In this document: positions 9,434 through 20,893 of the stretch, in pieces
How positions within the stretch are numbered: the first letter of the stretch is position 1
Layout: each line of letters starts with the position of its first letter
Assembly (NCBI GenBank): GCA_017534885.1
Contig: JAFXVR010000050.1
Location: forward strand, 1-64,000
DNA length: 64,000 nt
Reading direction: 5' to 3'
DNA from: Clostridia bacterium
GTDB lineage: Bacteria; Bacillota; Clostridia; Christensenellales; Aristaeellaceae
Notes under the pieces: generated by a model
The model's input: only the letters and a program-made list of their open reading frames with translations
Databases searched by the model: none
Told to the model about the DNA's origin: nothing
Program-made: the position numbers and the translations under genes

Positions 9434-11629
9434 TCAGATCAGGCCCAGCTCCTCCAGCTTGTCGGCGCACTCGGCCAGATCGAACTTCTCGAGGGTCTCG
9501 CGGGTCGGGATGCCGGTCTCCTTGTTCCAGCCCAGGGCTTCATACCACATGTCAAGGCTCTTCTCCCAGTCCTCGCGGTCCAGCTTCACGGTGCCTTCGT
9601 CAAAGGCCTTGAAGTCGGGCTCCTTGTCGAAGACCCAGTCGGACACGTGGTCGTGATCCTTGCGCAGGTTGGTGCTGCCCAGGTTCAGCTTGAAGCTGAT
9701 GGCGGTGATGACGCGCAGCAGCTGGGAAATGCGCTCGGAGTCGCGCTCCTGATCCTCGCGGGTGTACTCCTCGCCCAGCACGGCGCTCATGTACTTGGCG
9801 TCCAGATCCAGGTCGCCGATGTACTGGCGCTTCTTGCTGGTGGCGATGGTCATGGGATACATCCAGTTGCACAGCGTGGCGGAGTCATGCCACTGCTTGC
9901 CGATGAACGCCCACTTGGCCAGCTTGATCTTGTTCTCGTTGATGGGGGTGTACTTCTTCTGGGCGTCAGTGCAGCCCTCGCCGAAGAAGTGCTCCAGCAC
10001 CGGCTTGATGATGTCGTAGTACGGCGCGCCGGAAGAGCAGAAGTTGATCAGGTGGTGGATCATGCAGTCACGGTTGTACATCATGGAGTACAGCGTGCCC
10101 GCCTGCCAGCAGTTCTCCGGGCCGTGGTGGCGCGGATAGCCGTTGTGGCCGATGTTGAAGTTCTTGCCGTTGACGAAGTCATAGAAGTTGATGCCGGCAA
10201 CGTTCTTCTCGGGATCGTCCATGCCCCACTTCTGGTAGAGCTCGTAGGTGCCCAGGCCCAGGTCGGCGAAGAGGCCCTTGCCCAGAGAGATGCGGCGATA
10301 GCACTCCCACACCCAGCGGGGATCGCCGGCTTCCATCAGCGCCCACGGAATGGTGTCCCACTCACCGGGATAGAGGCGGTCGGCCACGTCCTTCAAGACG
10401 CCGGTGGTGTAGGCCATGTTGAAGTCTTCGTACAGGTTGCCATAGTTGCACCACACGCCGTATTCGTCAGCCGCGCGGGAACCGGCGCCGCCTAAGATCA
10501 TCTTGGCGTCCTTCTCGTCCACGAAGTCGTGGGTGGAGGGTACGCTTTCGCCGTTGGCGTCCTTGTGGTTGGGATACCACTCCAGCATCTTGATGATGGG
10601 CATGCAGGTGTTGGAGACGTGGGTGGGCAGATCATACTCCGCCAGGGGATCCATGTCATACTCGGTGTAGCAGCGGACGGGGCAGGAAGAGCAGCCGCCC
10701 TGCTTCACGGTGTACTTCTCAGCGATCTCGCCGAAGTCGAACACGCCCTTGTTGCAGCGCAGGGCCGCCACATTGATCTGGCCGCTGGGCTGCTCGCCCA
10801 TGTCGATCGGGCCCTTGGAGGCCTTGTCCCAGGTGATGCCAGGGGCGCCCTGCCAGCGGTTGTTGGTGGCCACATACTCGCTCCAGCTCTGCGCGTGGCA
10901 GGGAACGGTGTGGTTGTTGTTGCCGCCCACCAGATCCTTGATCATGTAGTTACTCAGCAGGCGAACCTTCAGGGGCTCGGCGATCTTGACCGCGCCGGTG
11001 CCGCGCACCACCAGGGCCTTGCACTTCTTGCTGCCCAGCAGGGCGCCGATGCCCGCGCCGCCGCTGTTGCCGAAGGAGGTGACGATGTTGGACATGTGCA
11101 CCAGGTTCTCACCGGCGGTGCCGATGCTGGCCACGTCGAACTCGGGGCCGTTTTCCTTGGCCAGGGTCGCGTTGACCTCGAAGGTGCCCTTGCCCCAGAT
11201 GTGGGAGGCGTCCTCGATGGTCACTTTGTCGTCGTCAATCTTGATGTAGACCGGCTTGTCGCTCTGGCCTTCCACGATCATGGCGTCATAGCCGGCATAC
11301 TTGAAGGCGTGAGCGATGTGGCCGCCCATGTGCGCGTCCACGATGGAATAGCCCTTGGACCAGCAGGACAGCAGGGTGATGTTCATGCGGCCAGAGCAGG
11401 GCACGCCGGAGGCGGTCAGCGGGCCGACGCCGAAGACGCACTTCGCGTCCGGGCCCAGGGGATCAGCGTCCAGCGGAACTTCGTCCCAGATGACCTTGTA
11501 GCCGATGCCCATGCCGCCGATAAAGGGCTTGTACTTGGGCAGGGTGTCTTCCTTGGTGATGGTGCCGGTGCTCAGGTTGACCCGGACGATCGTACCAGCC
11601 CAGCCGTTGATGCCATTCTTCACAGACAT
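9434..11629 (-). CDS. Aldehyde:ferredoxin oxidoreductase family tungsten/molybdenum enzyme (YdhV-like)
   Basis: 731 residues. The N-terminal domain (WAGTIVRVNLSTGTITKED, then GGMGIGYKVIWDE) is the AOR fold that binds a bis-pterin W or Mo centre. The first cluster cysteines appear in CSSCPVRCYTE, and a further cysteine near the C-terminus (LAECADKLE) could be the fourth ligand. Enzymes of this family oxidise aldehydes or act as ferredoxin-coupled oxidoreductases; the substrate of the YdhV branch is unknown. Length fits YdhV (about 700). The start has AGGAGG. The upstream gene encodes a 4x[4Fe-4S] ferredoxin likely to be its electron partner. Confidence 0.88.
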   Translation of the reverse strand: MSVKNGINGWAGTIVRVNLSTGTITKEDTLPKYKPFIGGMGIGYKVIWDEVPLDADPLGPDAKCVFGVGPLTASGVPCSGRMNITLLSCWSKGYSIVDAHMGGHIAHAFKYAGYDAMIVEGQSDKPVYIKIDDDKVTIEDASHIWGKGTFEVNATLAKENGPEFDVASIGTAGENLVHMSNIVTSFGNSGGAGIGALLGSKKCKALVVRGTGAVKIAEPLKVRLLSNYMIKDLVGGNNNHTVPCHAQSWSEYVATNNRWQGAPGITWDKASKGPIDMGEQPSGQINVAALRCNKGVFDFGEIAEKYTVKQGGCSSCPVRCYTEYDMDPLAEYDLPTHVSNTCMPIIKMLEWYPNHKDANGESVPSTHDFVDEKDAKMILGGAGSRAADEYGVWCNYGNLYEDFNMAYTTGVLKDVADRLYPGEWDTIPWALMEAGDPRWVWECYRRISLGKGLFADLGLGTYELYQKWGMDDPEKNVAGINFYDFVNGKNFNIGHNGYPRHHGPENCWQAGTLYSMMYNRDCMIHHLINFCSSGAPYYDIIKPVLEHFFGEGCTDAQKKYTPINENKIKLAKWAFIGKQWHDSATLCNWMYPMTIATSKKRQYIGDLDLDAKYMSAVLGEEYTREDQERDSERISQLLRVITAISFKLNLGSTNLRKDHDHVSDWVFDKEPDFKAFDEGTVKLDREDWEKSLDMWYEALGWNKETGIPTRETLEKFDLAECADKLEELGLI

Positions 11630-11670
11630 ATTTGCTTCCTCCTGTTTTTCATCAATTCATGCGGCCTGTG

Positions 11671-12309
11671 TCAGATCGCCTGAGAAACGGATACGATTTC
11701 GTCCCAGGGCACGATGGACAGCGCGCCGGAGGGACAGCCCTCTGCGCAGGCGCCGCACATGATGCACTTGGAGGACTTGTGGGTCTCGGGGTTGACGGTG
11801 GGCATGTGCCAGGGGCAGGCAGCCGTGCAGGCGCCGCAGCCGATGCACTTGTCCGTGTCAACCCGGCGGATGCCGTTCTCATCGGAGTAGATGGCCTGCA
11901 TCGGGCAGGCGTTGCCGCAGGCCGGATTTTCACACTGGCGGCAGGTGTCCGGGAAGTAGGTCCAGTTGTCCTCGGTGTACAGGCCCTGGCCGTTCCGGCT
12001 GGAATACAGGTTGCGGGTGACCTTGACGCGGGAGATGTAGCTGGAGCAGCAGCCGTCGTTGGTCAGGGTGCAGTTGATCTCACAGCGCTGGCAGCCCACG
12101 CAGCGGTCGGCGTCCACCACCAGGAGGCCCTGGGGGAAGGCCCAGACCCGCACCTTGTCCTCAGCCACAGCCTTTTCAGACACGCCCAGCACGCTGAGCA
12201 GTGAAGAGGACAGAGCCAGGCCGGCCAGGCTCTTGCCGCTCAGCTTCAGGAACTGACGGCGGGTATAGTCCTTGTCGAGAAAGCTCTTCCGGTCCATTGT
12301 TTCAGCCAT
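11671..12309 (-). CDS. Tat-exported 4Fe-4S ferredoxin-like subunit (YdhY-like)
   Basis: 212 residues from the ATG at 12309, chosen for its GGAGGAG site 7 bases upstream; the frame is open further but lacks a ribosome site there. A twin-arginine signal (YTRRQFLKLSG followed by a hydrophobic stretch) implies folded export through Tat. Four cysteine groups follow: CVGCQRCEINC, CRQCENPACGNACP, CIGCGACTAACP and CIMCGACAEGCP, giving four [4Fe-4S] clusters as in DMSO-reductase-type electron transfer subunits. It is the first gene of the operon. Oddly, the catalytic partner downstream has no export signal, so the pair may be exported together or the signal may serve as a membrane anchor. Confidence 0.87.
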   Translation of the reverse strand: MAETMDRKSFLDKDYTRRQFLKLSGKSLAGLALSSSLLSVLGVSEKAVAEDKVRVWAFPQGLLVVDADRCVGCQRCEINCTLTNDGCCSSYISRVKVTRNLYSSRNGQGLYTEDNWTYFPDTCRQCENPACGNACPMQAIYSDENGIRRVDTDKCIGCGACTAACPWHMPTVNPETHKSSKCIMCGACAEGCPSGALSIVPWDEIVSVSQAI

Positions 12310-12734: not shown

Positions 12735-14984
12735 ATGCGCAAACACCTGTCTGCATCCCTGCTTGTTTTTCTGGCCCTGCTGACCCTCTGTGCGCTTCCG
12801 TCATTGGCTGACGGATATGTGGCCGACACCCCTGAGGCTCTGCTCAGCCTGATCCGCCCCCACCTGGAGCGGTGCGAGAGCTCGTTTGAAGTGCAGGTGA
12901 CCAGCGAGCTCAGCCGCCGCGTGTGGGACGATCAAGGCGGCGGCGACTTGCTGAGCGACTTCATGACAGTGCACGGCGTGCAGTCCTGGGGCACCTCCCG
13001 CACCGTCTTTGGCGCGACCCGCACTGTCGAGTTCACCAATGTGTCCTACTACGCCGGGTGCCGCATCCTGCTGGCCTGGCAGACCGGAGACACCTCATCC
13101 CTCTCCGCCCGGGAGGCCGCGGCACTGAGCGCGGCGCAGCGGTTTGTCAGCTCCCTTGCAGGCAGCGCGCTGGACAGGGAGCGGGCCATTCACGACTACA
13201 TCTGCGCGAATGTGGTTTACTTCACCGACGACATCAGCGATAACGACAACGACTGCGCCATCGGCGGACTGCTCAACGGCCTGGCGGACTGCGACGGCTA
13301 CTCGGATACCTTCTTTCTCCTGTGCAATATGGCCGGCATCCCCTGCCGCTTTGTGCACGGCACCACCCTCCAGGACAAGGACAAGAACAGCGACAGCACC
13401 CATATGTGGAATGCCATCCGCCTGGACGGCAAGTGGGTGATGACCGATGTGACCTGGGACGACAGCGAGCACGGCACCACCTACCTGTACTACAATATCG
13501 GCAGCCGCCGGATGGGGCTGAATCACTTCTGGGACGCCGCCGCGCTGGATTTCACGCCCGAAGCGGAGGATGACGGCGCGCTGCTGACCGCTGACCTCCG
13601 CTTTGCCAAAGTTGAAAGCTGGGAACAGATCGCGCTGATTCTGCGCGCCAGGGCTGCCGCCCGGGCCAGCCGCATCCGGGTGCAGGTCACGGCTGATCTG
13701 GGCATCAAGGAGAATTCAGAGCAGCTCTCCTCCCTCGCCTTTGACAGCGGCCTGAGATCCTTCCAGTGGGATATCAGCCAGGACGCCTTCGAGCTGTACG
13801 ACCTGGAATACCCTGAGTATTTTCGCTTCTGCGCCGATGAGAGCGACATTGTCAGCTATGTCGATTCCTTTGCGGGCTGGGAGCAGCCGCCCGCCGAGTT
13901 CACCGTCTTCTTTGACAAGTCCCTGGGCAGCGCGCTCTGCGGCAGTGAGTGCGCCGGGCTGGACAGGGTGCTGTACGCCTCGAAGCTTGCCGCGCCGATC
14001 CACTACACCTACTCCTCCGGCCTGACCTCCGTCACGGTTCAGAATCCCGTCTACCAGCCCGACACCCCTCATGACCGCGCAGAAAGCTGGGAGGAAGTGG
14101 CGGCGGTTCTCCGCAGCCGGGCAGTCCAGAGAGCCAGCCGGATCCGGGTATTTGTGCCCGCCAGTCTGAACATCTGGGATCAGTCGGACAGGCTTTCTTC
14201 CCTCGTCTACGGCTGCGGTGTATCCTCCTTTCAGTGGGACATCAGCCGGTATGTCTTCGAGCTGTACGACCTGGAGTACCCCGGATATTTCCGCTTCTGC
14301 GCCGACGAGAGCGAAATCGTCAGCTATGTCAATTCCTTTGCCGACCAGGCCAGGCTGCCTTCGGAGTTCACCATCTTCTTTGACGAGTCCCTGGGCAGCG
14401 CGCTCTGCGGCAAAAACTGCGCCGGGCTGGACAGGGTGCTCTATGGCACGCGGCTCGCCGCCCCGATCCACTACAGCTATTCCTCCGGCCTGACCTCTGT
14501 CACCGTGCTGAGTCCCGCGTATCTGCCCGGCGACGTGCCCCTTGCCACGGACGAGGACAGCCTCTATACCGTGCTGAAGAAGGCCCTGTCCAAACAGCCG
14601 GCGGAGGTGCAGTTTGCCTACGGCGGCCAGCTGGATCTGGAACGGCAGAACGCCCTGGTGGTTCGCACCGTGGCCTCCCTGGGCGTGTCCAGCTCCTTCT
14701 ATTCCTCCACCGGCGGCGGATGCCGGATGTGGCTGAGCGGCCTGCAGTACTATGACGAGTTCAGGGTCGTCAGCACAAAGAAACAGGCGCTGAGCTACAT
14801 GAAGTCCTGCAAAAAGGCCGGAATCAGCACCTTTGTTCTGTTCTGCCCGGCGGATGTGTTCAGCGACCTGATGGAAAACAACGCCGGGCGGCTGTTCAGC
14901 ATGCTGGACGAGGCTGGCTTTCAGGATGAATCCATCAGCTATTCCGAGGAGTACGGCCTGATCCAGATTTCAAACGCCCGGTGA
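12735..14984 (+). CDS. Secreted transglutaminase-like protein with a duplicated domain
   Basis: 749 residues with signal peptide MRKHLSASLLVFLALLTLC. A transglutaminase-like cysteine protease domain covers about 100-260 with the expected triad Cys186 (ADCDGYSD), His223 (STHMWNAI) and Asp238 (VMTDVTWDD). Then come two copies of a domain of about 156 residues (from 294 and from 450) that keep phrases such as FELYDLEYP, YFRFCADES, SLGSALCG and APIHYSYSSGLTSVTV. A unique C-terminal region of about 140 residues follows. The enzyme probably acts on extracellular peptides or cell-wall peptide; the repeats may bind substrate. AGGAGG precedes the ATG. Confidence 0.82.
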   Translation: MRKHLSASLLVFLALLTLCALPSLADGYVADTPEALLSLIRPHLERCESSFEVQVTSELSRRVWDDQGGGDLLSDFMTVHGVQSWGTSRTVFGATRTVEFTNVSYYAGCRILLAWQTGDTSSLSAREAAALSAAQRFVSSLAGSALDRERAIHDYICANVVYFTDDISDNDNDCAIGGLLNGLADCDGYSDTFFLLCNMAGIPCRFVHGTTLQDKDKNSDSTHMWNAIRLDGKWVMTDVTWDDSEHGTTYLYYNIGSRRMGLNHFWDAAALDFTPEAEDDGALLTADLRFAKVESWEQIALILRARAAARASRIRVQVTADLGIKENSEQLSSLAFDSGLRSFQWDISQDAFELYDLEYPEYFRFCADESDIVSYVDSFAGWEQPPAEFTVFFDKSLGSALCGSECAGLDRVLYASKLAAPIHYTYSSGLTSVTVQNPVYQPDTPHDRAESWEEVAAVLRSRAVQRASRIRVFVPASLNIWDQSDRLSSLVYGCGVSSFQWDISRYVFELYDLEYPGYFRFCADESEIVSYVNSFADQARLPSEFTIFFDESLGSALCGKNCAGLDRVLYGTRLAAPIHYSYSSGLTSVTVLSPAYLPGDVPLATDEDSLYTVLKKALSKQPAEVQFAYGGQLDLERQNALVVRTVASLGVSSSFYSSTGGGCRMWLSGLQYYDEFRVVSTKKQALSYMKSCKKAGISTFVLFCPADVFSDLMENNAGRLFSMLDEAGFQDESISYSEEYGLIQISNAR
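13614..14549 (+). repeat. In-frame tandem duplication of a 468-bp domain
   Basis: Unit 1 starts at 13614 and unit 2 at 14082, both with codons for ESWE. The match persists at DNA level over long stretches, for example CCCTGGGCAGCGCGCTCTGC in both, indicating a fairly recent duplication inside the transglutaminase-like gene. Confidence 0.8.
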
Positions 14985-15071
14985 CGGCGGTTTTCCCCCT
15001 TCCCCAAACCGGTGGTTTGCATTGCGCATTCCCTCCCTTTGATCCCTTGCGTCACAGAAAGGCGGAGCATC

Positions 15072-17531
15072 ATGGTCTTCTTTCAGCAGTTCTATCTGGA
15101 CAGGGAAAAGGACATCGCGGTGGAGCTCTGGATGGAGGGCGAACGCCTCAAATATGTCATCCGCACGCCCAACCACCACACGGGCAACCTGATCAGCAAC
15201 CTGGCGGCGCTCTGCGGTATGCGCACGTCTGAGGACAGCCGGGGGCTGAAGATCATCCGTGGGGAGGTGCCCTGCTATTTCGACGGCGACAACCGGCGGA
15301 TGTACATCCTGCGGCTGGGCAATACCAAGGTGGCCAATATCTATCCCGATGGCCGGGTGGAGCTGAAGGCCTCCATTCCGGCGATCTCCAAGACGCTGAT
15401 GAGTCAGACCAAGGAGTACCATCTGGGCATCGAAAAGACGATCGTCAAGACCTATATCCGCAGCGAGTGCAAGTTCCGCACCGACCTGCACACCCACATG
15501 AACGGCAACCTGCCCCCGGATGTCCTCATCGCCTTAGGCGTCGTCCGGCAGATTCGCTACCCCTATTACTACATCAAGAAGCTGGGGCTGAGGTGCACCC
15601 TGGATCAGCTGGCGGCCCTGGAGACGGCCCGGACGGCAGCCGCGGCAGGCCTGGGCGAAACCACCCTGACCGGCCGCTACCGGGAGCGGCGCATCGACGA
15701 CCTCACCTTCATCAACTTTGCCGACCTGATCCTCGGCAACCCGGCGGACGCGGCCTTCAACATCGAGCGCATCCGCAATTCCCTGACCATCCCCAAGGAC
15801 GGACAGGCGGTCTTCGCCAATCTGGAAAAGGTCTATCTGTACCGCTATGTGTTCACCAAGGGCGTTGAAGCGGCGAATCCCTTCAGCGGCGTCAACATCA
15901 GCAGCCTGCCCGACCGGGAAGTCAGAGGCTTTGCGGAGCGCATGCAGCGGGACCGGGAGGACAGCCGCTACCGGGGCAACACCCTCTTTCAGGACCTGCT
16001 GCTCTGGATTGCCCGGGAATATCAGCGGCACGGCATTACCTATGCGGAAATCACCGATACTTCCCTTTTGAACCAGCGGGATGTGCCCGCCCGGCTCCGG
16101 CAGATTCATGAGATCATGCCCGCCGTGACCCGGGAGACCGGGGTCACCCTGCGCTTTCTCGCCGGCATCCGGCGCATTCCCCTGACTATCGTCCGGGATC
16201 ACATCACCCCCAACGATTACCTGATGGAAAACCTGCGCTGCCTGAGGAGCATCGCCGCCGATCCCTATGTGGCGGGCAGCGACATCATCGGCGAGGAAAT
16301 CAACGACATCCTGGAGCTGCGCGGCGTCATCCGCGAGCTGACCGCCATCGCCGGAGAGCACCCGGGCTTTGTCATCCGCATCCACGCCGGGGAGAACGAC
16401 AGCCTGCGCGGCAATGTGGCCAACGCCATCCGCTGTGTGGCGGAAGCCCTTCAGCCCGGCCAGCCGGTGCCTCCCCTGCGGCTGGGGCATGGGCTCTACA
16501 CCTGCGACCTCCGCAGCGCCCGGGGCAGAAAGCTGCTGGAGGACATGCGGCGCTATGGGGTGACCCTCGAATTCCAGCTGACCTCCAACGTGCGCCTCAA
16601 CAACCTGAGCCGCCTGAACCACCATCCCCTGCGCCAGTACCTGCGCGCCGGCATCAGCTGTGTTCAGGGCACGGACGGCGGCGCTCTGTACGGCACCAAT
16701 TCCATCGACGAGGAGCTGAGCCTCGAGAAGCTGCTGGGCCTGACGGAAGGTGAGCTGCGCCGGATGAAGGAGGCTGAGGACGCGATTCTCGCGGAAAGCC
16801 TGCGCGTGTTCCAGCGGAAGCAGGAGGACTTCCGCCGCTGCTGTCCCGGCGGGGATGTGGAGCTCTATTACAGCCGCCTGCTGGCCACGGACGAATCCAC
16901 CGACCGGGTGCTCTGGCAGAGCGGCGGCAAGGTCAGCGCCGAGGAAGCCCTGCGCAGCCGCCTGACCCAGCTGCCGGAGGACCACTTTCCCATCGTGCTG
17001 GCGGGCGGCAGCTTCAACAGCAGCCAGAGGCGCAGTCCCCTGCGGGAGGAGGACAAGGCCTTCCTGGACGCTCTGCTGCGCCAGGCCGATCCGGACAGGG
17101 TCTGCTTTGTGATCGGCCACACCCTCTCCGCCCAGGAGGGCTACCTGGCCAGGCAGGCCCGGGGCCGCTTTCCGGTCTTTGCCATTGTGCCCAGCCAGCT
17201 GACCCGCATCCAGTGCGCCCGCCTGAGCGAGGCAGGACTGGGCATCCTCGTGTCCATCGAGAGCTCGGGCATGGGCCTGTACAAGAGCTTTGCCTACGAG
17301 GTCTTCAACCGGCATTCTTCCGCCCTGCTGGCCTTCGACGGCAATTCCGCCGCGCAGAACCTGATTCAGGAAGCCCGCAACGCCCGCTTCCGCTGCCAGA
17401 TCTGCATCAATCCCCGCTCCCGGAATCTCGCCGTCAAAGCCCGCACCCTCGAGGGCTATGTGAGTCCCCTCGGCGACCCCGAAGCCCTGCTGTCCCGTCT
17501 CGGTCTGCTGGCGGAAACGGCGCAGACCTGA
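15072..17531 (+). CDS. Adenosine-deaminase-like protein fused to a C-terminal Rossmann-like domain
   Basis: 819 residues from the ATG at 15072, which has an AAAGGCGGAG site; a GTG at 15012 is also in frame but lacks one. Residues 1-130 are an unrecognised beta-rich domain. Residues about 135-600 match the metal-dependent deaminase barrel: H140-T-H142 (DLHTHMNG), H438-A-G-E441, LGHG, and T534-D535. Classical adenosine deaminase has TDD or SDD; here it is TDGG, so the second Asp is missing. Residues about 640-800 (VLAGGSF, CFVIGHTLS, SIESSGMGLYKS) look like a Rossmann-type nucleotide-binding domain of SLOG or TIR-like kind. That assignment is tentative. It may process a modified nucleotide signal rather than free adenosine. 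Confidence 0.72.
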   Translation: MVFFQQFYLDREKDIAVELWMEGERLKYVIRTPNHHTGNLISNLAALCGMRTSEDSRGLKIIRGEVPCYFDGDNRRMYILRLGNTKVANIYPDGRVELKASIPAISKTLMSQTKEYHLGIEKTIVKTYIRSECKFRTDLHTHMNGNLPPDVLIALGVVRQIRYPYYYIKKLGLRCTLDQLAALETARTAAAAGLGETTLTGRYRERRIDDLTFINFADLILGNPADAAFNIERIRNSLTIPKDGQAVFANLEKVYLYRYVFTKGVEAANPFSGVNISSLPDREVRGFAERMQRDREDSRYRGNTLFQDLLLWIAREYQRHGITYAEITDTSLLNQRDVPARLRQIHEIMPAVTRETGVTLRFLAGIRRIPLTIVRDHITPNDYLMENLRCLRSIAADPYVAGSDIIGEEINDILELRGVIRELTAIAGEHPGFVIRIHAGENDSLRGNVANAIRCVAEALQPGQPVPPLRLGHGLYTCDLRSARGRKLLEDMRRYGVTLEFQLTSNVRLNNLSRLNHHPLRQYLRAGISCVQGTDGGALYGTNSIDEELSLEKLLGLTEGELRRMKEAEDAILAESLRVFQRKQEDFRRCCPGGDVELYYSRLLATDESTDRVLWQSGGKVSAEEALRSRLTQLPEDHFPIVLAGGSFNSSQRRSPLREEDKAFLDALLRQADPDRVCFVIGHTLSAQEGYLARQARGRFPVFAIVPSQLTRIQCARLSEAGLGILVSIESSGMGLYKSFAYEVFNRHSSALLAFDGNSAAQNLIQEARNARFRCQICINPRSRNLAVKARTLEGYVSPLGDPEALLSRLGLLAETAQT

Positions 17532-17629: not shown

Positions 17630-20600
17630 TCAGCTTCTGCCCTGTCCCAGGATGCCGCTGAGCAGCGCCATCATCCGCGGGATATCATAGGGCTTGGCCA
17701 GGTGGCCGTTCATCCCGGCTTCCCGGGCCATCTGCCTGTCCTCCTCAAAGGCGTTGGCGGTCACAGCCACGATGGGCACCTCTGCCTTCTCCCTGTCCGG
17801 CAGGGCGCGGATCTGCCTGGCGGCTTCATAGCCGTCCATGTACGGCATCTGGATGTCCATCAGCACCACGTCATAGGTGCCCGCAGGCGCTTCCCGCATC
17901 CTGTCCACGGCCTCTGAGCCGTCATTGGCGATGTCCACCGCAAAGCCCACGCCCTCCAGAATCGTCTGGGCGATCAGCTGGTTCATCTCATTGTCCTCGG
18001 CCAAAAGCACCCGCCGCCCGCTGAAGTCCGGGTTTTCCGGGGCCGTCTGCGTCTCGGCGGGCTGCCGGATGGCAGGCTGGGTCAGCGCTTCCCGCAGTCC
18101 GGACAGGAAGAGGGGCTTGGCGCAGAAGGAGGTGGCGCCGGCCTCGAGGGCTTCCTCCTGAATGTCCGACCAGTCATAGGCCGTCAGCATGATGATGGGC
18201 GGGTTCGCCCCGATGACCTGCCGCAGCTCCCGCACGGTCTCGATCCCGCTCAGCTCGGGCATCAGCCAGTCCACCAGACAGTAATCGAAGGGCTCGCCCT
18301 GCCCGATGGCCTCCCGGGCCAGGCGCGCCGCCTCCCGCCCGTCCTGCGTCCACACAGGCTTCAGCCCGAGGCCGCTGAGCATATCGCAGACCGAGAGGCA
18401 GCTGTTGATGTCGTCATCCACCACCAGCGCCCGCTTCCCCTGCATCTCAGGCAGCGCCTCCGCGGGGCGGACGTCATCGCAGACGCGGCAGCGCAGGCGG
18501 ACGACGAACTCCGTGCCCTTGCCCTCCGCGCTGGTCAGCGAGATTGTTCCGCCCATCATGTCCACGATGTTCTTGGTGATGGCCATGCCCAGGCCTGTGC
18601 CCTGTATGCCGCTGACTGTGCTGGTTTTCTCCCGGGTGAAGGCGTCAAAGATCGTTTTCTGGAATTCCTCGCTCATGCCGATGCCGTTGTCCTTCACCCG
18701 GAATTCAAACTCCGCGTATCCCGGATGGTCGCAGTGCTTCTCGATGACCCGCAGGCTGATGGCCCCGCCCTCGGGGGTGAACTTCACCGCGTTGGAGAGG
18801 ATGTTCAGCAGCACCTGGTTGAGGCGCAGTCTGTCGGTCATCACATCCTCGCTTACCACGCCCTCGGTGTCCACAAGCAGCTGCTGATGCCGCTCGGCGG
18901 TGTTCACCTGGATGATGCTCCGGATATCCCGGAACAGATCCGGCAGGTGGACGGGCGCTTCCTCGATGACCACCTTCCCGCTCTCGATGCGGCTCATGTC
19001 CAGCACATCGTTGATCAGGGAGAGCAGATGCCGGGAGGAGAGGGTGATCTTTTCGAGATAATCCTTCACCAGATCCGGCTTGTCCGTGTGCGAGGCGGCC
19101 AGGGCTGTGAAGCCCACGATGGCGTTCATGGGCGTGCGGATGTCGTGGGACATATTGTTGAGGAAGGCTGTCTTGGCGCGGCTGGCCTGCTCGGCGGCCT
19201 TCAGCGCGTCCGAAAGCGCCTGTTGGCTCTCCGCCAGCTGACTGTTCTTTTCTTCCAGCGCCTGGCGGGCCTTTTCCTTCTCAGCCGCCTGCCGCTTGTG
19301 CCGCCTGGAATCCCTCACCAGGAAGCCGATGATCAGCGCCGCCACCGCCAGCAGGATGCCCGCAAACAGCCCCCAGTTGTTCCGGATCACATCGGCCAGG
19401 CTGACGGTATAGAGCTGCTCCGCATAGCGGTAGGCCAGTCCCGGGGCGTAGTCCTCGCCAATCACAATGATGCCGCGGTTGATGAGCTTCAGCAGGCCCT
19501 CCTGTCCGATGGGCACGCCAAAACACCGGTTGTCGTCATGGTTGAGCTGCAGCCGGTTGAGGCCGGTGAAGGCGTTGTTCTTGAGTATGTCATTGGCCCG
19601 GAGGCCGTTGAGGGTGGTGCAGCCGGCCTGCCCGGAGAGCACCGCCCGCAGACAGTCCTCGATGGAGGGAAAGAGGGTGATTTCCGCCTCCGGGTAATGG
19701 GTGCGGATAAAGTAATACTGCATTCGGTTGTTCTGGTTGACGGCGAAATGCCGGGTGAGCGCCTCGCTGTACTCGCCCTTGTAAACCAGCTCCGTGGAGG
19801 AGGATACCACCGGGCTGGACTGGCAGATGCCGTTGATCTCGGAGTAATAAAGGCCGCCGCCCACCGGGAAGGCCAGGTCGATCCCGCCCGCGTTCAGCTC
19901 CCGGATCATCTCGTCATAGCTGTCAAAGCCGCGCCAGGACAGGCTCATGCCCGCGATGCTCAGGTTCTCCAGCATCCTCAGCAGGATATCCCGCACCAAT
20001 CCGGTGACCTGGCCGTCCTTGTCGGTGTCGCTGTAGGGCAGATAGTGATTGAGATAGCCCACGGTCAGGCCGGTGTGTCCGGCCATCCATTCCCGTTCCG
20101 CCGCTGAAAAGGCCATGCTGGAGATGCTGACGGGGTAATATCTGGCCCGCAGGGCATTGAGATAGTTGGGCTCCTCCACCGCCAGCTGCGTCTGGGCCGC
20201 GTTGAGATCCGCCAGCAGGTCTTTCCTTTTTGCGCTGACGCAGAGGTAATAGTCCGACGCGCCGAAAGCCGTCAGCACCTCCGCATCCGCCCGGCCGTGC
20301 GCGCCGTCGCCCTCCGCCGCCAGCACGTCGATCTCGTGCGCGTCAAAGGCGGCAAACAGCGCCTCATAGTCCCGGTAGGCAGCCACCTCGGCCTGCACGC
20401 CATGGCCGGTCAGGTAGCTGTTCAGCACGCTCACCATGGCGCTGTCCAGCACGCCGATCCGCCGGCCCGCCAGGCTTTCCGGGCTCGCGGTGATGTCCGC
20501 GTCAGTGCTGTGCTTCACCAGACTGTAAGTCTCATGCCCCATGGCCAGCTCCGGGTAGCCGATCAGTCCGGCCCGCTCCTCACGCCAGGCCAGCCCGGCC

Positions 20601-20893
20601 AGCAGGTCGATCTCCCCCCTCAGCAGCTGCTCGTACAGGTCGCCGTATTCGCCATAAACGTATTCGTACTTCCAGCCCGTGTATTCCGACAGCTTCTGGT
20701 AATACTCATAGGCGTAGCCCGTCCTGACCGCGTCCGGCCGCGCGCCTTCCTGAAACACCTCGTTCTCGTAATAGCCCACCCGGACCGCGGCGCTTTCCGC
20801 CAGGGCGCAGTTGATTGGCAGCACGGCGCGGCAAAGGAGTGTCAGCAGGATGGCTGCAGCCATCAAGAACCGTCTCAGGCTTTTTGTCTTCAT
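17630..20893 (-). CDS. Hybrid histidine kinase with two periplasmic-binding-protein sensors
   Basis: 1087 residues. After a signal/anchor segment (8-33) there are two amino-acid-binding-protein-like (SBP_bac_3) modules in tandem, about 36-265 (AAVRVGYYENEVFQ) and 272-500 (LTVGYLNHYLPYSDTDKDG). A membrane segment (505-528), a coiled linker and HisKA with His583 (NNMSHDIRTPMNA) follow, then HATPase (GIQGTGLGMA) and two receivers with Asp875 (LVDWLMPE) and Asp1013 (LMDIQMPY). The plan resembles BvgS/EvgS without an HPt domain. It should sense an extracellular amino acid or similar small solute. There is no cognate regulator nearby. It is divergent from the MATE exporter. Confidence 0.93.
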   Translation of the reverse strand: MKTKSLRRFLMAAAILLTLLCRAVLPINCALAESAAVRVGYYENEVFQEGARPDAVRTGYAYEYYQKLSEYTGWKYEYVYGEYGDLYEQLLRGEIDLLAGLAWREERAGLIGYPELAMGHETYSLVKHSTDADITASPESLAGRRIGVLDSAMVSVLNSYLTGHGVQAEVAAYRDYEALFAAFDAHEIDVLAAEGDGAHGRADAEVLTAFGASDYYLCVSAKRKDLLADLNAAQTQLAVEEPNYLNALRARYYPVSISSMAFSAAEREWMAGHTGLTVGYLNHYLPYSDTDKDGQVTGLVRDILLRMLENLSIAGMSLSWRGFDSYDEMIRELNAGGIDLAFPVGGGLYYSEINGICQSSPVVSSSTELVYKGEYSEALTRHFAVNQNNRMQYYFIRTHYPEAEITLFPSIEDCLRAVLSGQAGCTTLNGLRANDILKNNAFTGLNRLQLNHDDNRCFGVPIGQEGLLKLINRGIIVIGEDYAPGLAYRYAEQLYTVSLADVIRNNWGLFAGILLAVAALIIGFLVRDSRRHKRQAAEKEKARQALEEKNSQLAESQQALSDALKAAEQASRAKTAFLNNMSHDIRTPMNAIVGFTALAASHTDKPDLVKDYLEKITLSSRHLLSLINDVLDMSRIESGKVVIEEAPVHLPDLFRDIRSIIQVNTAERHQQLLVDTEGVVSEDVMTDRLRLNQVLLNILSNAVKFTPEGGAISLRVIEKHCDHPGYAEFEFRVKDNGIGMSEEFQKTIFDAFTREKTSTVSGIQGTGLGMAITKNIVDMMGGTISLTSAEGKGTEFVVRLRCRVCDDVRPAEALPEMQGKRALVVDDDINSCLSVCDMLSGLGLKPVWTQDGREAARLAREAIGQGEPFDYCLVDWLMPELSGIETVRELRQVIGANPPIIMLTAYDWSDIQEEALEAGATSFCAKPLFLSGLREALTQPAIRQPAETQTAPENPDFSGRRVLLAEDNEMNQLIAQTILEGVGFAVDIANDGSEAVDRMREAPAGTYDVVLMDIQMPYMDGYEAARQIRALPDREKAEVPIVAVTANAFEEDRQMAREAGMNGHLAKPYDIPRMMALLSGILGQGRS

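Follow-up and report, generated by a model that had tools for sequence, protein, structure and literature searches.

We identified, in a 64,000-nucleotide stretch of DNA (the window), a gene for an 819-aa member of the adenosine deaminase (ADA) superfamily that consists of three parts: an N-terminal domain, an ADA barrel and a C-terminal SLOG-fold domain (Table 1). Our tentative proposal, which we hold at a little less than even confidence, is that this protein is a stand-alone, chromosomal, metal-dependent deaminase whose substrate would be a phosphorylated nucleotide of adenine or a related purine, not free adenosine, and whose activity would be set by a nucleotide-type ligand of the SLOG domain. 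If this is true, the protein represents a Cad1-like design with a different sensor, outside CRISPR, stably maintained as a single gene in abundant gut bacteria, and it offers a simple one-protein system for direct study of sensor, deaminase and ligand. As far as we searched, by terms in the open literature, the ADA-SLOG fusion has not been described, although it may be mentioned in a survey of SLOG fusions.

Table 1. Features of the gene and its protein, with positions in the window.
Feature	Residues	Position	Strand	Basis and remarks
SLOG-fused ADA-like protein gene	1-819	15072..17531	+	819 aa plus stop; ORF translation, full-length homologues aligned
Ribosome-binding site AGAAAGGCGG		15056..15065	+	Before ATG 15072; upstream sequence
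N-terminal domain	1-125	15072..15446	+	Beta-rich with one helix (model secondary structure); conserved
ADA-type metal-dependent deaminase barrel	126-583	15447..16820	+	Pfam PF00962 E 3e-16; VIA Z 26.7
HTHMN motif	140-144	15489..15503	+	Metal ligands H140, H142; N144 vs Asp19 of mouse ADA; invariant, 38 sequences
HAGE motif	438-441	16383..16394	+	Metal ligand H438, catalytic E441; invariant, 38 sequences
GHG motif	472-474	16485..16493	+	Catalytic H473; invariant, 38 sequences
TDG motif	534-536	16671..16679	+	Metal ligand D535 kept; G536 for purine-contact Asp296; invariant, 38 sequences
SLOG-fold domain	620-805	16929..17486	+	AlphaFold2 pLDDT 92; VIA Z 11.6-13.9

The mechanically called open reading frame begins at GTG 15012. 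We favor ATG 15072 as the start because of the homologue alignment and the AGAAAGGCGG ribosome-binding site; many homologues also have a purine-rich, AAAGGAGG-like stretch ahead of their start. Searches against Rfam detected neither a riboswitch nor any other RNA family at the gene. Within the protein, A_deaminase alone scored above its Pfam cut-off.

The initial annotation had read an ADA-type motif series from the sequence, and this series is real: HTH (140-142), HAGE (438-441), GHG (472-474) and TDGG (534-537) are all in place. Chance can be set aside because the PF00962 match (residues 312-566, 59.8 bits against a cut-off of 27) has an E value of 3e-16, the full-length model matches solved ADAs over residues 126-583 (Z 26.7 to 2qvn in VIA), and the motifs are invariant in an alignment of 38 sequences, whose relatives are 54-76% identical to the window protein. 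Among the invariant positions are H140, H142, H438, E441, H473, D535, D404 and G407, the last two of which, judged by their motif, would be Asp181 and Gly184 of mouse ADA. In mouse ADA, Asp296 is the second Asp of the TDD motif and contacts the purine. The window protein's TDG aligns with the TDD of a solved ADA (6n9m), so that Asp296 is replaced by Gly536, and a second substrate-contact position, Asp19, is replaced by Asn144, a change that was absent from the initial annotation; both replacements are invariant in the 38 sequences. The earlier claim of a missing catalytic-site residue was thus correct in that the second Asp of TDD is replaced, but the lost residue is neither a metal ligand nor a general acid or base (Asp535 is present).

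Asn144 is not universal, as a distant homologue (P0002, described below) has Ala at that position. ADA-superfamily proteins encoded elsewhere in two of the genomes that carry the gene (L161, L163) keep TDD. Several ordinary-length ADA-like proteins have Asn at the Asp296 position (TDN, with HxHxD), which means that replacement of Asp296 on its own points only weakly to a new substrate. As a side observation, the ADA-superfamily proteins at L161, L163 and L133-L138, which combine HSHAGKG or HNHSTKG with TDD, or HLHLDG with TDN, are, judged by sequence, further non-canonical ADA-like groups in the phylum.

For the C-terminal domain, the initial annotation had put forward a SLOG or TIR-like fold as a candidate. 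Structure prediction and fold search favored the former, with no turn toward a non-nucleotide family: the domain modeled in isolation is well predicted (AlphaFold2 pLDDT 92, pTM 0.90), and all 50 VIA entries listed for it are SLOG-fold proteins (Z 11.6-13.9, 145-176 residues). The best match listed is TRPM8 (8e4p, Z 13.9, rmsd 2.9, 173 residues), after which VIA lists TRPM2/4/5, DprA, Moco carrier protein and LOG; by Foldseek, LOG is near-tied among the best matches. A SLOG fold is therefore supported for the predicted structure, with TRPM channels the closest among the matches listed, while a TIR fold is absent among those listed by either Foldseek or VIA. At the profile level, LSDAT_prok (PF18171) did not match the window's C-terminal domain, and its match to P0002 was sub-threshold (16.1 bits against a cut-off of 25.4, profile positions 13-158 of 195). 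The proteins in the phylum that do match PF18171 are LOG/Moco-carrier-like and have no profile link to this domain, and hhalign gave no significant match to LOG-type proteins (E 0.3). LOG phosphoribohydrolase is an unlikely identity, as the GGxGTxxE motif was not found; DGN (756-758) sits where the GGxGT loop would be, within DGNSAAxNLIQE. Because the LOG catalytic loop is replaced by DGNSAA, the SLOG domain is likelier to be a sensor than a phosphoribohydrolase.

The N-terminal domain was described from the outset as unrecognised, and so it stands: sequence-profile searches with residues 1-125 returned no family match. In the full-length model (pLDDT 85), whose fold-search matches are dominated by the barrel, this domain is not Rossmann-like. 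We can only guess that it would have a role in assembly or substrate access. Profiles of the N- and C-terminal domains found the same seven full-length proteins across 291 genomes of the class and nothing else, save one more match of the C-terminal profile, which is the distant full-length homologue P0002. This protein (L154:8226-10577, 783 aa, from a genome of ~1.2 Mb) was found in 1/98 genomes of its own family. It comes from the same taxonomic order as the window, keeps the three parts along with HTH, HAGE, GHG and TDG, and aligns to the window family over the full length of the profile (hhalign E 2e-46, 27% identity); its SLOG domain has a GGG loop. It follows that TDG and the division into three parts are both old and stable.

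Relatives were found by tblastn in 94/300 genomes of the window's taxonomic family, covering 12/50 genera. They are mostly 53-78% identical over the full length, with essentially one gene per genome (in a few genomes split over contigs). A degenerate-pattern scan of genome contigs confirmed 563 stretches, which corresponds to roughly 300 genes or more, since two patterns can match one gene; the records listed come mostly from ruminant-gut Clostridia, plus Lachnospiraceae, Solobacterium and others. One genus has the gene in 21/25 genomes, as two diverged lineages whose identity to the window protein is ~70% and ~56%. In the tree, sequences group by genus, and several transfers are likely (17 changes, where the least possible is 11 and the shuffled mean is 35), so inheritance was likely mostly vertical in several genera, with some horizontal transfer. 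The N-terminal domain has the lowest dN/dS (0.02-0.08), compared with 0.04-0.20 in the ADA barrel and 0.08-0.31 in SLOG; all three parts are therefore under purifying selection, the N-terminal domain the most. Homologues in four genomes have a single in-frame stop (G150, TAA; G190, TAG; G195, TGA; G250, TAA), and the G250 homologue keeps only a 64-aa piece; these stops may reflect decay, assembly error or recoding.

The gene is chromosomal, single copy and stand-alone. Across 98 homologue loci there is no conserved neighbor or operon partner beyond close relatives, in line with the initial annotation's description of a stand-alone protein. Tight operons are uncommon (a same-strand upstream gene lies within 60 bases in 25/87). 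The 133 distinct neighbors have ordinary functions in transport, the cell wall and metabolism, and no purine genes stand out among them. Just as had been said of the window itself, defense genes do not adjoin the family: PADLOC matched 4 families among these 133 neighbors, with one member each. A viral, phage or plasmid origin was rejected, as the phage, plasmid and IMG/VR collections held no relatives at the sensitivity used. A link to type III CRISPR was likewise rejected, as one Csm1/Cas10 model gave no match above cut-off in 20 carriers; the sub-threshold matches of its HD region fall in ORFs of ~520-600 aa, which are probably RNase Y-type proteins. TIR proteins were found in 12/20 carriers and not detected in the other 8, the window's genome included. 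Within the window, a transglutaminase-like protein whose catalytic domain is followed by two similar repeats (12735-14984) is encoded just upstream on the same strand, a hybrid histidine kinase with periplasmic solute-binding and receiver domains (17630-20893) is convergent with the gene, and the minus strand at 9434-12297 encodes an aldehyde ferredoxin oxidoreductase and, next to it, a 4Fe-4S protein.

What the protein does is best approached through Cad1. TaqCad1 deaminates ATP, with no detectable deamination of adenosine, and it and its close homologues are substituted at the equivalents of mouse ADA Asp19 and Asp296 (Gly264 and Asn549), residues that contact and recognise ATP (PMC12669630). 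The same two positions are substituted in the window family, as Asn/Gly where TaqCad1 has Gly/Asn. By analogy, this shared alteration makes nucleotide deamination under ligand control probable, and from the Cad1 parallel a nucleotide substrate is likely; the barrel would then deaminate a phosphorylated nucleotide of adenine or a related purine in place of free adenosine. Control by a nucleotide-type ligand on the SLOG domain is suggested by TRPM2, by the CARF domain of Cad1, and by ThsA, which senses its ligand in Thoeris through its SLOG domain (PMC12948488). Adenine nucleotides would be the foremost candidate ligands because TRPM2 binds ADP-ribose in its N-terminal pocket (MHR1/2) but does not bind deaminated IDPR there (PMC7555694). 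A more specific version, in which the protein is a CRISPR-independent signalling or protective system with an unrecognised N-terminal fold, and an ADP-ribose-type or adenine-nucleotide signal on SLOG either activates the fused deaminase or is destroyed by it, is conceivable but on the doubtful side.

Housekeeping purine salvage, with the protein serving these gut bacteria as an adenosine or deoxyadenosine deaminase and SLOG as a regulatory or structural add-on, is an unlikely explanation, even though mostly vertical inheritance in several genera, purifying selection and constant presence in one genus speak for it. Both substrate-contact Asp residues are replaced, all NCBIfam adenosine deaminase models fall below their equivalog cut-offs (best 43.8 bits against 216.55), and no purine genes stand out beside the gene. 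Carriers with a second A_deaminase protein keep both, and two non-carriers (G223, G274) do without any A_deaminase protein, which shows the activity to be dispensable. The earlier statement that this is not a purine-salvage enzyme is likely right, and the active site does depart from the canonical one; but in 13/16 carriers examined the protein is the only one with PF00962, which leaves room for a metabolic role. A different metabolic role, in which a MAPDA/ADAL-like deaminase with a LOG-like domain would process N6-modified AMP (cytokinin-like or m6AMP) derived from plant diet or RNA turnover, strikes us as improbable. The barrel's near-tied best fold matches include ADAL and MAPDA, in which Asn occupies the Asp19 position, LOG is among those of the C-terminal domain, and many named records come from the ruminant gut; however, Asp296 is replaced, and DGN in place of the GGxGT loop makes a phosphoribohydrolase unlikely. 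We consider it highly improbable that the barrel is catalytically dead and purely sensory: mouse ADA is strongly impaired by loss of Asp296 (PMC12669630), but the metal ligands and E441/H473 are invariant in the 38 sequences and kept even in P0002, which is related at the profile level only.

The initial annotation named a conflict protein as one of its options. Such a protein would be a defense effector whose deaminase is switched on by infection or by a signal nucleotide and then poisons the ATP/dATP pool with ITP/dITP, as RADAR and Cad1 do. The active-site parallel with Cad1, the SLOG fold shared with ThsA, the patchy distribution over genera and some horizontal transfer speak for it. Nonetheless, ordinary neighbors, no Cas10 above cut-off in the 20 carriers, the TIR proteins undetected in 8 of them, absence from plasmid, phage and viral collections, retention in most genomes of one genus and strong purifying selection all speak against it. 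This role is therefore unsupported and less likely on present evidence, and we rate it as somewhat less probable even than salvage.

Returning to the proposed ligand-controlled nucleotide deaminase, its comparison with known systems is as follows. A canonical adenosine deaminase (PF00962, TIGR01430) shares the barrel and the metal and catalytic set of HxH, HAGE, GHG and TD, whereas the window protein has Gly for Asp296, Asn for Asp19 and two extra domains. The SLOG/LSDAT domains of TRPM channels, LOG, DprA and Moco carrier protein share the fold of the C-terminal domain, but identity is ~10%, and the window protein gives no significant Pfam match to them; LOG differs further in its GGxGT motif. 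RdrB of RADAR is likewise an ADA-superfamily deaminase, acting on mononucleotides (PMC9994260), but the domain set differs, PADLOC gave no RdrB match up to E 10, and the 98 loci have no conserved neighbor as a candidate RdrA. Cad1/CAAD is the nearest in design, as it also joins an ADA barrel to a Rossmann-type ligand-sensor domain (model match to Cad1 9c67, Z 23.1). The PADLOC CARF_ADA match (E 4e-6) covers the ADA part alone (profile 338-548 of 605). Cad1 has CARF at its N-terminus, while the window protein has SLOG at its C-terminus and an extra N-terminal domain that is not Rossmann-like; and Cad1 belongs to type III CRISPR, while the window family stands alone. The best-supported view, by analogy, is that the window protein would work like Cad1 yet is not a member of that family, as neither CARF nor, by the Csm1/Cas10 model in 20 carriers, a CRISPR association was found. 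To our knowledge, the case of ligand-gated nucleotide deamination described so far comes from CRISPR (Cad1); RADAR is a related case, triggered by phage.
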